Shown here: positions 12,439 to 62,322 of the stretch, one piece after another
How the letters are laid out: each line of letters starts with the position of its first letter
How positions within the stretch are numbered: position 1 is the stretch's first letter
From: an uncultured Clostridia bacterium
GTDB lineage: Bacteria; Bacillota; Clostridia; Christensenellales; Borkfalkiaceae
Direction: 5' to 3'
DNA length: 64,000 bases
Assembly (NCBI GenBank): GCA_947626685.1
Contig: CANQTD010000002.1
Location: 62,001 to 126,000 of the forward strand
Program-made: the position numbers and the translations under genes
Notes under the pieces: model-generated
The model's database searches: none
What the model saw: only the letters and a program-made list of their open reading frames with translations
What the model was told of the DNA's origin: nothing

Positions 12439-13484
12439 CCAAACGACTTGTCGGCGTCGGCGGCGTCACGCTGGGCGGCGGACGCGTCGCCGTACAGAGC
12501 ATGACGACCGTGAGAACGAGCGACGTGGAAAACTGCGTCGCTCAAATTCTCGCGCTCGAAGAGGCGGGCTGCGATATCGCGCGCGTCTCCGTGCTCGACG
12601 AGAGCGACGCCCGTGCCATCGCGCAGATCAAGCGGGGCGTGCACATTCCCGTCGTTGCGGATATCCATTTCTCCGCAAAACTCGCCGTGCTCGCGGCGGA
12701 ATCGGGCGCGGACAAACTCCGCGTCAACCCCGGGAACATCGGCGGGGAGAAGGAGCTCGCGCGCGTTGCGGACTGCGTGAAAGCGCACGGGATCCCCGTG
12801 CGGGTGGGGGCGAATACGGGCAGCATCGAGCCGTATTTTCTCGAAAAATACGGCAGGAGCGCGAAGGCGCTCGTCGAGAGCGCGCTCTCCGAGGTCGCGG
12901 CGTTCGAACGGCACGGGGTGAACGCCATCGTCGTCTCGGTCAAGGCCTCCGATGTCCGTATGACTGTGGAAGCATACGAGACGCTCGCCGCGCGCACCTC
13001 TTACCCCCTGCATCTCGGCGTCACGGAGGCGGGGACCCCGCGGAGCGGCGTCGTCAAGAGCAGCATCGGGATCGGCGCGCTGCTTTTGAAGGGGATCGGA
13101 GATACCATCCGCGTCTCCCTCACGGCGGATCCCGTCGAAGAGGTGGCTGCGGCGCACGAGATCTTGCGCGCGCTCGGGCTCGAGAGCGACTATGCGGAAG
13201 TGATCTCCTGTCCGACCTGCGGCAGGTGCGAATACGATTGCATGGGGCTTGCGGAGCGCGTCAACGAACGCGTGAAGGGGGTGCGGAAGCACTGTAAGAT
13301 CGCCGTGATGGGCTGCGTCGTGAACGGCCCCGGCGAAGCGAAAGACTGCGATCTCGGCATCGCGGGCGGAAGGGAATACTGCGTGATCTTCGAAAAGGGA
13401 AAGGAGAACGTCCGCGTGCCGCGCGAGGACGCGGAGCGCGTTTTCTTTGAAAGGATCGACGGCATGACGGGCATCAATCCATGA
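12435..13484 (+). CDS. ispG: 4-hydroxy-3-methylbut-2-en-1-yl diphosphate synthase (IspG/GcpE)
   Basis: The 349-aa enzyme catalyses the sixth step of the methylerythritol phosphate (MEP) isoprenoid pathway, reducing MEcPP to HMBPP with a [4Fe-4S] cluster. Visible signatures are V-A-V-Q-S-M-T in the TIM barrel, A-D-I-H-F, R-V-N-P-G-N-I-G and the C-terminal cluster motifs S-C-P-T-C-G-R and V-M-G-C-V-V-N-G-P-G-E. Length is normal. ATG 12435 overlaps the nrdR stop, and the ispG stop overlaps the next gene, so translation is probably coupled. In many Firmicutes dxr and rseP precede ispG; here nrdR replaces them. Confidence 0.96.
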   Translation: MTKRLVGVGGVTLGGGRVAVQSMTTVRTSDVENCVAQILALEEAGCDIARVSVLDESDARAIAQIKRGVHIPVVADIHFSAKLAVLAAESGADKLRVNPGNIGGEKELARVADCVKAHGIPVRVGANTGSIEPYFLEKYGRSAKALVESALSEVAAFERHGVNAIVVSVKASDVRMTVEAYETLAARTSYPLHLGVTEAGTPRSGVVKSSIGIGALLLKGIGDTIRVSLTADPVEEVAAAHEILRALGLESDYAEVISCPTCGRCEYDCMGLAERVNERVKGVRKHCKIAVMGCVVNGPGEAKDCDLGIAGGREYCVIFEKGKENVRVPREDAERVFFERIDGMTGINP

Positions 13485-14995
13485 AAAGTCAGGAATATTT
13501 GGACGAAATACGAAAATCGGCGGGGCTGAAACGCGCCGTCCTCAGAAATATCACGGTGGAGGGGAACGAAGCCGTCTTTCACCTCGTCACCGACGTCAAC
13601 TATACGGCGGAGGATATCTCCTATGCCGACAGGGTGACCGCGCGCTATGCGCCGGGATTGCGCGCGAGCGTCAAAGTCATGAAGAGCATTGCGGGCGAAG
13701 AAGCCGTCCGCCGCGCCGTTTCGGACATTCTCGCAGCCCGTTTTCCCGCTCTTTCCGCCTTTATCGCCCCGCAGGATATCGAGGTGGCGACGGACGAGAA
13801 CGGCGGGAGGTTTTATATCGGCGTCGGGGAAACGGAGCGCGAGGCGGGGCTTGCGGAGGGCGTGACGGACGCGGTCTCCGCGGCTCTTTCGAGGAGTTTC
13901 TGCGGGAATTGGATCGGGGAACTCCGCGCGGTGAAAAAGAAAACGGTGGAGATCGCGGGCGACCTCCCGCCCGAGGAGATCGTCTTTTCTCCCCGTTATT
14001 TCAACGTTACGAACGTTTCTCCCATCGACGGGGCAACGCCCCGCCCCGAGCGCGCGCTCTATATCGCCGACCTCACGAAAGAGGAGGAGAACGTCACGCT
14101 CTGCGGGCAGATCACATACATAGAGGAGCGCGTGACCAAGAACGGGAAGCCGTATTTCGCGATCACGATCTCAGACGGTTCGGGTTCGCTCCGCCTGATG
14201 TATTTTTCCAAAAAGGCGAGCGTGGAGAAGATCCGCGACCTGAGAAAGGGGATGAACATCTGCGTCACGGGGAAAAACGAGCTCTACAACGGCGCGTTTT
14301 CCTTCCACGTCAAGACGGTGGATCTCGGTTCCCCGCCCGAAGGTTTCGTCCCCGTCGCCCGTCCTTCCCGCCCCGTCCCCGCCCAGTACCGCACGGTATT
14401 CCCCGTGCCCGAAGCCGATCTCGAACAGGCCGACTTCTTCGGCACGAAGGCGATGCCCGCGGGCTTTTCCGACAAGAAATACGTCGTGTTCGATTTAGAG
14501 ACGACGGGGCTTTCGTTGGGCGGCGTGATGGACCATATCATCGAGATCGGCGCCGTCAAGATCGAGGACGGACACATCAGCGAGCGGTTTTCCACGTTCG
14601 TCGCATGCCCCGTCCGCCTCTCCGCGGAGATCGTCTCGCTCACGGGCATCACGGACGAAATGCTCGTCGGGGCGCCCGAGATCGGGGACGTCATCGCCGA
14701 CTTCTACAAGTTTACGGCGGGCTGCGACCTTGTGGCGCACAATACGTCCTTCGATTGCAGGATCATCCGCTATTACGGAGAGAAGGAGGGGTATTTCTTC
14801 GGACAGGAACAGTACGACACCGTCGCGCTCGCGCAGGAGATGCTTCCGCAGCTCAAAAATTTCAAGCTCGGCACGATCGCCGACTACTTCCATTTCGAAT
14901 TCAACCACCACCGCGCCTATGCGGATGCGTTCGTCACGGCGAAGATCTTCATGGAATTGGTGCGCATGAAGGGCGCGTTGCCGAAATCCGCATAA
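13481..14995 (+). CDS. PolC-derived protein: N-terminal and OB domains plus 3'-5' exonuclease, no polymerase
   Basis: This 504-aa protein sits at the usual polC place between ispG and rimP and starts like PolC. It has the N-terminal helper domain (about residues 1-190), the OB-fold (about 200-285, I-T-Y-I-E-E-R-V-T-K-N-G-K-P-Y), then a DEDDh exonuclease from about 333. Catalytic residues are all visible: D338 and E340 (D-L-E-T-T-G), D425 (H-N-T-S-F-D), H477 and D482 (H-H-R-A-Y-A-D-A). PolC normally has about 1400 residues with the exonuclease inserted in a PHP domain. Here PHP is missing on both sides, and the palm, fingers and thumb are absent. The frame ends in a clean stop before the rimP promoter, with no polymerase sequence in any frame after it. 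It could act as a free proofreading or repair exonuclease; a replicative polymerase must be encoded elsewhere. Confidence 0.85.
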   Translation: MKSQEYLDEIRKSAGLKRAVLRNITVEGNEAVFHLVTDVNYTAEDISYADRVTARYAPGLRASVKVMKSIAGEEAVRRAVSDILAARFPALSAFIAPQDIEVATDENGGRFYIGVGETEREAGLAEGVTDAVSAALSRSFCGNWIGELRAVKKKTVEIAGDLPPEEIVFSPRYFNVTNVSPIDGATPRPERALYIADLTKEEENVTLCGQITYIEERVTKNGKPYFAITISDGSGSLRLMYFSKKASVEKIRDLRKGMNICVTGKNELYNGAFSFHVKTVDLGSPPEGFVPVARPSRPVPAQYRTVFPVPEADLEQADFFGTKAMPAGFSDKKYVVFDLETTGLSLGGVMDHIIEIGAVKIEDGHISERFSTFVACPVRLSAEIVSLTGITDEMLVGAPEIGDVIADFYKFTAGCDLVAHNTSFDCRIIRYYGEKEGYFFGQEQYDTVALAQEMLPQLKNFKLGTIADYFHFEFNHHRAYADAFVTAKIFMELVRMKGALPKSA

Positions 14996-53378: not shown

Positions 53379-53395
53379 ATGAAAAGTCAAAAATA

Positions 53396-53415
53396 CCCCG
53401 CTTTTGCGGGGTTTT
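53396..53415. terminator. Bidirectional terminator between convergent operons
   Basis: CCCCGC-TTTT-GCGGGG hairpin; TTTT follows on the + strand, and TATTTTTG on the minus strand. Confidence 0.82.
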
Positions 53416-53431: not shown

Positions 53432-55147
53432 TTATTTCTTATAGCAGTCGCAGGGATAGCCGTCCGGTTTATATCCCGTGTCGGAACACTTCTTGCAGAA
53501 GTATTCTGGGACGAAATCCTTGTCGGAGAGATTGAGGCGGGCGAGCGCGGCCGCGCGCCTCTCTTTGGCGGCAGCCAACTTTGCCTCGATGGAGGGGAGC
53601 GTTTCGGGAGAGTAGAGCTCCGCTTTCGCGAGTTCGAGCTGGCCTTTCCGCAAGACGCTTTCCGCCTCCTTGTAGTCGGCGTCCTTTTCGGCGATGGCGC
53701 GCGCCCGTTCGACGTTGCGCATCGCGAGCCGTTTTCTCTCCGCGTAAAACCGTTCGCGGTCCGTCCGTTCGTCCGCTGCGATCGCGGCTTCGCTCTTGAA
53801 GGGATTCTGCTTTGCGGGTATGGGTGCCGAAGGCTTTTCGGGGATCTCCGAGACGGCAGACACGCCGAGCCGCTTCCATTCGGAGAGGAGCTTGTTCATG
53901 TAGGGGAGGGGAGCGGAAGCAATTTCGCTCCTTTTTGCCGCTTCGAGGATCATTTCGTCCGAAAAGCTCCAATTTCTCCATGTTTCGATCATGTCGAGGG
54001 TCGCCTGCGACTTCTTCACGACCCCGCAGAGACCCTGTATGCGTCCGAGCAGGCGGAGCTGCCCGTCGCGCGCGGCGCAGTATTCCCGCACGCTCTCGTG
54101 GTCGACGACGCCCGCCGCATACAGCCCGTCGATCATGTCGTCGAGCTCCGCAAAGCCGTAGGAGAGGCGGAGCCCCAACGAGGCGAGAAGGGTCAGGCTC
54201 TCTTCGTCGTAACCGCGTTCCAGCCACTTTACGGCGTATTCTTCTATGTAAGGGCGGGGATTCGGCGTTTTCAGACCGAGTTTTTTTGCGACTTTGAACA
54301 CGATGGAGGCGAGTTCCTCCTGTTCGGCGAGGTAGGCTTTCGCGTCGCTCTCGGTGAAGATCTTTTTTTCGGCGAGCTCGCTCACGCGCGCGTCGAGGGC
54401 TTTGAGAGACCCCGTCCCGTTCGAGGAAGCGCAGGCGCAGACGGCACCGATCTCCATGCCCTCCGCGAGCCATTTTTCGAGATACTCGTAGTCGGCGTCC
54501 TGCGGTTTGCGGTAGACGCCGAGCAGCGAAAAGATGTGCGCCAGCTCCTTTTCGCGCGTATGGAAGTCGGCGAGATCCGCTTCCACCTGTTCCAGCGTGA
54601 ATTTCATCGCCTTTGCGAGCTGTTTCGCCTTGTTGAGGATATGGTTCGCCGAAAGTTTCGGCCCGTCCTTGCGGATGCAGTACTCCACGATGAGCAGGAA
54701 CGCCTGATGCTCCATCGGGGTCTCTTCGAGAAATTCGAGGAGCTTGCGGTGATCGTAAGGGGAGAGATCTTTGTTGGCCTTTTGCAGGAGCCGGAAGAGA
54801 TCCTGGTTGAATTGGGCATACTTTTCGGGGCGGAGGGGCTTCGGCTTGCCGACGGAAGCGTTCACGGGGAGATATTCGATGAGGAGCGGCGACTTGGAGA
54901 GGACCTGAACGAGGCCGCACTCTTCCCAGAAGGAGAAGATCTCGGCGAACCTGTCATAGGGGATCTTCAGAAGTTTCGCGGCGTTCTCCGCGTCGAAATC
55001 TTTTCCGCAGTGGCAAAGATACAGCCCGTAGAGATAGGCGCGCACGGCGTCGCCGTCCGCTTCGGGGAGATATTTGGCGATGAACTGGTTTTCCACGCTC
55101 GTGAAGGCGCGCTCGCCGTAATCCTTCGAGAAGGATGAAAATGACAT
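53432..55147 (-). CDS. DnaD-domain protein fused to a DnaI/DnaC-type helicase-loader N-terminal zinc domain
   Basis: This 571-aa protein combines two replication-initiation modules. Residues about 5-95 are the DnaD N-terminal winged helix (V-E-N-Q-F-I-A-K-Y-L-P, A-Y-L-Y-G-L-Y-L-C, then W-E-E-C-G-L-V). DnaD/DnaB-like C-terminal domains follow (about 185-265 and about 385-430, ending Y-M-N-K-L-L-S-E-W-K-R-L-G). Residues about 460-571 resemble the N-terminal domain of clostridial DnaC/DnaI helicase loaders, ending in a zinc cluster C551-x2-C554-S-D-T-G-Y and C566-x-C568. In normal loaders an AAA+ ATPase follows; here the frame stops two residues after the cluster. The next sequence is a terminator with no AAA+ coding in any frame. 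Start ATG 55147 has GGAGG. Either a separate AAA+ protein completes it, or loading works without one. Confidence 0.78.
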   Translation of the reverse strand: MSFSSFSKDYGERAFTSVENQFIAKYLPEADGDAVRAYLYGLYLCHCGKDFDAENAAKLLKIPYDRFAEIFSFWEECGLVQVLSKSPLLIEYLPVNASVGKPKPLRPEKYAQFNQDLFRLLQKANKDLSPYDHRKLLEFLEETPMEHQAFLLIVEYCIRKDGPKLSANHILNKAKQLAKAMKFTLEQVEADLADFHTREKELAHIFSLLGVYRKPQDADYEYLEKWLAEGMEIGAVCACASSNGTGSLKALDARVSELAEKKIFTESDAKAYLAEQEELASIVFKVAKKLGLKTPNPRPYIEEYAVKWLERGYDEESLTLLASLGLRLSYGFAELDDMIDGLYAAGVVDHESVREYCAARDGQLRLLGRIQGLCGVVKKSQATLDMIETWRNWSFSDEMILEAAKRSEIASAPLPYMNKLLSEWKRLGVSAVSEIPEKPSAPIPAKQNPFKSEAAIAADERTDRERFYAERKRLAMRNVERARAIAEKDADYKEAESVLRKGQLELAKAELYSPETLPSIEAKLAAAKERRAAALARLNLSDKDFVPEYFCKKCSDTGYKPDGYPCDCYKK

Positions 55148-61479: not shown

Positions 61480-62322
61480 ATGAGCATTCAGTTAACAGCA
61501 GACAGCACTTGCGATCTCGGGCGGCTCGTCGCCGAAAACGGCATCGGCATCATGCCGCTCTCCGTCATTCTCGGCACCGATTCGTACCGTGACGGCGTGA
61601 ACATTGTTCCGCAGGATATCTTTCAATATGTGAGCAAAACGGGCACGCTGCCCAAGACGGCTGCGCCGAGCATTCAGGACTACGAAGAATTCTTCGGCGG
61701 CTATGTGGAGGCGGGGAAGACGGTCATCCACTTCAATATCTCTTCAAAATCCTCCTCTTCCAACCTCTATGCTACGGAAGCGGCGGAAAAATTCAAGGGA
61801 AAGGTGTACGTCGTCGACACGAAGGCTCTCTCCTCGGGGCAGGGGCTTCTCGTGATGAAAGCGCTCGACCTGCTCCAAGAGGGGAAGGGCGCGGAGGAGA
61901 TCTGCGAGACCGTCAACGCGCTCCGTCCGAAAGTTAACACGTCCTTCATCCCCGACCGCCTCGACTATCTCTTCAAGGGCGGCCGCTGTTCGCGCATGGC
62001 GATGTACGGCGCCAATCTGTTAAAGATCCATCCGCTCATCGAAATGGACGACGGCCAGCTCGTCGCGGGCACGAAGTACCGCGGGAGCATGCAGAAATGT
62101 ATCGAGAAGTACATCGCCGATCTTGCGGTCAAGTATCCGAAATACGACAGGAGGAGATGCTTCATCACGCACAGCAGCGCAGACAGGGAACTCGTGGAAT
62201 TTGCGAGAGAGCAGGTCGGAAAGACGTTCTCCTTCGATGAAGTCATCGAAACGGTCGCGGGCTCCGTCGTCACGGGACACTGCGGAAGAAACACGCTCGG
62301 CGTGCTGTTCATTGCGGAGTGA
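61480..62322 (+). CDS. DegV-family fatty-acid-binding protein
   Basis: The 280-aa protein is a DegV/FakB type: T-A-D-S-T-C-D-L at the start, T-A-A-P-S near residue 60, S-S-K-S-S-S-S near 88, and R-L-D-Y-L-F-K-G-G-R-C near 167. FakB proteins hand fatty acids to the kinase FakA; no fakA is present nearby. It starts 10 nt after lepB behind AAGGAGTC. Confidence 0.92.
   Translation: MSIQLTADSTCDLGRLVAENGIGIMPLSVILGTDSYRDGVNIVPQDIFQYVSKTGTLPKTAAPSIQDYEEFFGGYVEAGKTVIHFNISSKSSSSNLYATEAAEKFKGKVYVVDTKALSSGQGLLVMKALDLLQEGKGAEEICETVNALRPKVNTSFIPDRLDYLFKGGRCSRMAMYGANLLKIHPLIEMDDGQLVAGTKYRGSMQKCIEKYIADLAVKYPKYDRRRCFITHSSADRELVEFAREQVGKTFSFDEVIETVAGSVVTGHCGRNTLGVLFIAE

Follow-up and report, generated by a model that had tools for sequence, protein, structure and literature searches.

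A DnaD protein fused to a helicase-loader docking domain without the AAA+ motor suggests an ATPase-free loading route in Candidatus Gallimonas

The window analyzed here, a stretch of 64,000 nucleotides covering positions 62,001 to 126,000 of contig CANQTD010000002.1, contains a gene whose product joins DnaD to the N-terminal docking domain of a helicase loader (Table 1). The sequence-only reading of this locus had described a DnaD joined to a loader zinc domain with C-x2-C and C-x-C but without the AAA+ part, and profile searches of the protein bore this out. Pfam DnaB_2 was detected in two stretches, the best of which covered residues 381-435 (50 bits against a cut-off of 22), and residues 470-571 matched model positions 16-120 of the 330 positions of NCBIfam PRK06835, a DnaC-type ATP-binding loader, with an E-value of 1.3e-9. 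Beyond this match, the PRK06835 model has a further 210 positions of AAA+ domain, which are missing from the 571-aa protein. Pfam detected neither an ATPase domain nor a G39P domain (PF11417) in this protein, and no Walker A motif was found in the four genus homologues scanned.

The AlphaFold model showed helices and two strands (residues 80-92) within residues 1-100, and winged-helix proteins were present among the weak fold matches of the full-length protein. The model of the docking domain, with a pLDDT of 96.5, combines three long helices with a zinc knuckle. The proposed "DnaI/DnaC" identity of this domain held only in part. The profile match and the alignment identified a clostridial-type loader N-domain with CxxC and CxC, placing it with the clostridial DnaC-type loader family, but no link to the N-domain of B. 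subtilis DnaI was detectable: a PDB-sequence profile search and Foldseek found no likeness between the docking domain and the solved DnaI N-domain, and PDB structure searches returned no useful match for either the full model or the docking domain alone.

Table 1. Positions in the window of the dnaD-loader fusion gene, its parts and its terminator
Feature	Position	Strand	Basis or remark
dnaD-loaderN fusion gene	53432..55147	minus	571 aa; ATG start, TAA stop
N-terminal winged-helix region (DDBH1-like), residues 1-100	54848..55147	minus	AlphaFold model
DnaD/DnaB_2 helical repeats, residues 107-436	53840..54829	minus	Pfam DnaB_2 and AlphaFold model
Fast-evolving linker, residues 437-452	53792..53839	minus	Low pLDDT at 438-448; dN/dS up to 1.1
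Loader N-terminal docking domain, residues 453-571, without AAA+	53435..53791	minus	PRK06835 match, alignment, domain model
C551-x2-C554 zinc-ligand pair	53486..53497	minus	Sequence
C566-x-C568 zinc-ligand pair	53444..53452	minus	Sequence
Intrinsic terminator 3' of the fusion gene	53395..53412	minus	Hairpin 20 nt beyond the stop codon

The closest public records belonged to Candidatus Gallimonas and to uncultured Clostridia, from rabbit, chicken and sheep gut; the genus is one that we take to be placed in the GTDB family Borkfalkiaceae. All 37 Candidatus Gallimonas genomes examined carried the fusion, with full-length homologues at 55-66% identity; this count includes one genome in which the fusion is split over two contig ends (G021) and one with a single in-frame TAG (G022). 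Cysteines C551, C554, C566 and C568 were invariant in an alignment of 17 genus homologues. The dN/dS of the docking domain was 0.09-0.23 in close pairs, showing that this domain is under purifying selection, and the linker was loose, with values of up to 1.1. A sequencing error or frameshift that masks an AAA+ continuation, which would have undone the initial interpretation, was ruled out by the 37 homologues and by the terminator past the stop, whose closeness leaves no room for a frameshifted AAA+ part.

We searched the genomes of the order with a profile built from the AAA+ domains of 12 sister-family loaders. The profile matched 195 of the 248 genomes at E <1e-20, typically with 175-277 bits. 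Of the 53 genomes of the order without a match, a group of 33 may include further losses. The 103 genomes of Candidatus Gallimonas gave DnaA-level matches only (42-58 bits), with the exception of four (G099, G103, G117 and G122), which carry short phage-type AAA+ loaders (62-89 bits) as well as the fusion; a few further genomes of the genus gave weaker second matches. The search covered each of the 60 genomes of the genus with a completeness of at least 90%; nearly all gave DnaA-level matches only, and the absence of the loader is read from the pattern over these 60, as a single draft genome cannot prove absence. The separate AAA+ loader that the first reading had proposed to look for was therefore rejected both for the genome containing the window, where the best match to the profile was DnaA, and as a chromosomal gene of the genus, where matches were at the DnaA level apart from the few phage-type extras. 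DciA (PF05258) was detected in none of the 20 genomes tested, with 7 of 14 controls positive, and was rejected as a substitute loader. The DnaB helicase itself was present once per genome in all 15 genomes tested; in the genome containing the window, its gene lies at C2:127241, shortly beyond the window's edge.

In sister families, the gene immediately after dnaD encodes a loader of ~300 aa. Because these families keep both as adjacent genes, we regard the fusion as the remains of a dnaD-loader pair, in which dnaD is apparently joined to the first ~120 codons of the former loader gene. Fusions were also found elsewhere; the survey of other orders covered a sample of their genomes. Two members of family f28 (G223 and G174) encode fusions of 609 and 613 aa without AAA+, and five congeners (G130, G154, G209, G235 and G248) have kept the dnaD-dnaC pair. 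Both fusion genomes were in the set of 248 searched with the AAA+ profile and were not among its matches. In the DnaD tree they were nested within the gene pairs of their family with 100/100 support, and the strongly supported branches of the tree imply that the fusion label changed four times or more. Family f34 (G474) has a 425-aa DnaD-loaderN protein whose gene adjoins the dnaB helicase gene, and a piecewise reading of the whole genome (1.94 Mb with overlaps) revealed no AAA+ loader, only DnaA. A 405-aa fusion is present in family f71 (G561). To judge from the sequences, the same motor-less fusion arose separately in other lineages, namely f28 and f34. The DnaD proteins of family f16 (G051 and G185) have just the helical half of the docking domain and lack the zinc cysteines, and the AAA+ profile gave no match in G051 and a weak one (5e-22) in G185. 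The two dnaD genes of this family (L052 2209-3831, minus strand; L112 2382-3956, minus strand) end at the same place.

The sister genus g26 has the full fusion in 28 of 41 genomes. DnaD alone was found in seven genomes plus G340, giving eight; G362 was left out of this count, its gene being cut by a contig end. A gene for a protein of ~195 aa abuts dnaD in all eight genomes. This protein matched Pfam Inhibitor_G39P (three of five tested were above the cut-off, best E 4e-9) and the PHROG family "helicase loader", and is otherwise very rare in the order, with matches in 4 of 248 genomes. In the DnaD tree, the genomes with DnaD alone fell inside the fusion group, at two places. With a G39P-family gene in the vacated slot, the docking domain was therefore lost exactly where another ATPase-free loader came in. 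A G39P-like gene was also seen near an integrase and a repressor-like gene (G143:C75:15236-15820; L219; L238 2740-3330, plus strand), a locus that is likely a prophage source for the G39P-type loaders.

The docking domain was also found in initiators of phages and mobile elements. Three unrelated kinds of initiator, with a double HTH, DUF6291 or Lin1244, end in this domain without AAA+. Double-HTH, O-like initiators with a terminal docking domain occurred on contig C35 of the genome containing the window and in several relatives. Contig C35 (L061, 13.9 kb) carries a tyrosine integrase, a large P-loop protein and the HTH initiator ending in the docking domain, and it looks like an integrated phage-like element. 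A 67-kb phage contig from IMG/VR (3300029305_006387) encodes a Lin1244-type initiator with the docking domain at its C-terminus (L244 3035-4120, plus strand), and no AAA+ loader lies next to the initiator on that contig. Searching viral sequences with the zinc-knuckle pattern found one phage, and viral scans with the whole mobile-element initiators as queries gave no matches. MT835484.1 (L363), labeled Bacteriophage sp., was rejected as a phage with the domain: it carries an ordinary bacterial dnaD-dnaC pair, its neighboring genes look chromosomal, and it is probably not a phage. The obvious need shared by the initiators is to recruit the host helicase.

We consider it likely that the fusion protein acts as a helicase loader without a motor, with DnaD holding the helicase directly and so providing an ATPase-free loading route. 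What we infer is helicase binding by the docking domain, DnaD oligomerization and ATPase-free loading. DnaD would come to the origin in the way known from other Firmicutes; its C-terminal docking domain would bind the replicative helicase DnaB and hold it at the opened strand; and ring opening or assembly would be left to the helicase's own ATPase and to clustering by the DnaD oligomer. In B. subtilis, the N-domain of the loader DnaI is the helicase-binding part (PMC3791466), and DnaI is in turn bound, through its AAA+ domain, by the tail of the co-loader DnaB (PMC13326638); because of this latter contact, the AAA+ domain can be viewed as a bridge. In ordinary relatives, the DnaD/DnaB_2 protein leads to the AAA+ loader and the loader to the helicase. 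In the fusion lineage, a covalent link between DnaD and the docking domain would replace the AAA+ bridge, which would therefore be unnecessary. In C. difficile, mutation of the Walker motif leaves the loader able to bind, to permit loading and to release active helicase (PMC5204125), which suggests that the loader ATPase locks rather than loads the helicase. The different loading route proposed in the sequence-only reading gains support from the loader profile match and the missing AAA+ loader. Three further observations agree with it: the fusion recurs in separate lineages, a G39P-type gene takes over in part of the sister genus, and phage initiators use the domain as well.

An alternative is that the helicase is self-loading, or depends on an unrecognised protein for loading, and that the docking domain only regulates or restrains it. 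Ring helicases that load themselves are known, Twinkle among them (PMC9723800), the C. difficile loader ATPase mainly locks the helicase (PMC5204125), and the eight sister-genus genomes with DnaD alone live without the docking domain. However, in the same eight genomes the slot left empty is taken precisely by a G39P-type loader gene, an argument that some protein has to do the loading, and the use of the docking domain by phage initiators is easier to explain by recruitment than by restraint. We regard this explanation as unlikely. Still less probable is that the partner of the docking domain is a different initiation protein (DnaA or primase, for example) and that the domain serves as an adaptor in ordinary loaders, with the helicase contact moved elsewhere. 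The clostridial N-domain indeed has no visible relation to the helicase-binding domain of B. subtilis DnaI, but the N-domain of the B. subtilis loader is the part that binds helicase (PMC3791466), what phage initiators chiefly require is the host helicase, and a helicase loader occupies the place of the docking domain in the G39P branch. That the fusion is a relic with a decaying domain, with the AAA+ loader supplied by mobile elements or lying in unassembled sequence, is highly improbable, for although the genomes are drafts and four genus members have phage-type AAA+ loaders (62-89 bits), with weaker second matches in a few more, nearly all of the 60 genomes at least 90% complete gave DnaA-level matches only, purifying selection acts on the docking domain, whose cysteines are invariant, a terminator closes the fusion gene, and loader loss recurs in unrelated lineages.

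Beyond the reading of the fusion as a motor-less loader, we lean toward the broader view that Clostridia repeatedly dropped the AAA+ motor of the loader, after the docking domain had been tied to DnaD or a phage G39P-type loader had taken over, that phages of these bacteria exploit the docking domain by carrying it on initiators of their own, and that the loader ATPase may be an optional regulator and not the ring-loading machine.

The window also contains a PolC remnant (13481-14995, plus strand), a 504-aa protein with an OB fold and a 3'-5' exonuclease but no polymerase domain, which sits in the usual place of polC, shortly before a rimP-like ORF. The reduced PolC noted in the initial reading is therefore real, but nothing connects it to helicase loading, as had been hinted there; the remnant is independent of the helicase-loading change and is not evidence for it.

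The usual view of AAA+ loaders is that of motors placing the replicative ring onto DNA. A published survey described DnaC/I and DciA as mutually exclusive, with few species having neither (PMC5109545). Here, a whole bacterial family and separate lineages appear to have neither, and two different ATPase-free substitutes occupy the same gene position. These lineages constitute natural experiments on what a helicase loader cannot do without, with defined proteins available to test. No published report of a DnaD-loaderN fusion was found in the literature searched, in which subscription journals were mostly not covered.

Compared with known systems, the fusion recalls the clostridial dnaD-dnaC pair, exemplified by CD3653-CD3654 of C. 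difficile (PMC5204125), in which a DnaD/DnaB_2 protein has the loader gene directly beside it, as in the sister families; in the fusion, DnaD and the loader N-domain are in one chain, and the AAA+ ATPase that is always present in the pair is missing. In the DnaD/DnaB/DnaI system of B. subtilis (PMC13326638, PMC3791466), the loader is reached through the tail of the co-loader and binds the helicase with its zinc N-domain, whereas the fusion system lacks the AAA+ bridge of DnaI and its N-domain is not recognisably the same in sequence or fold. DciA (PF05258; PMC5109545) is likewise a chromosomal helicase loader without an ATPase, but no DciA domain occurs in the fusion or anywhere in the 20 genomes tested. 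SPP1 G39P (PF11417; PMC5615212), unlike the fusion protein, which has no G39P domain, is a separate phage protein; it too is a helicase loader without AAA+, and in some genomes of the sister genus g26 a member of its family stands in for the docking domain.
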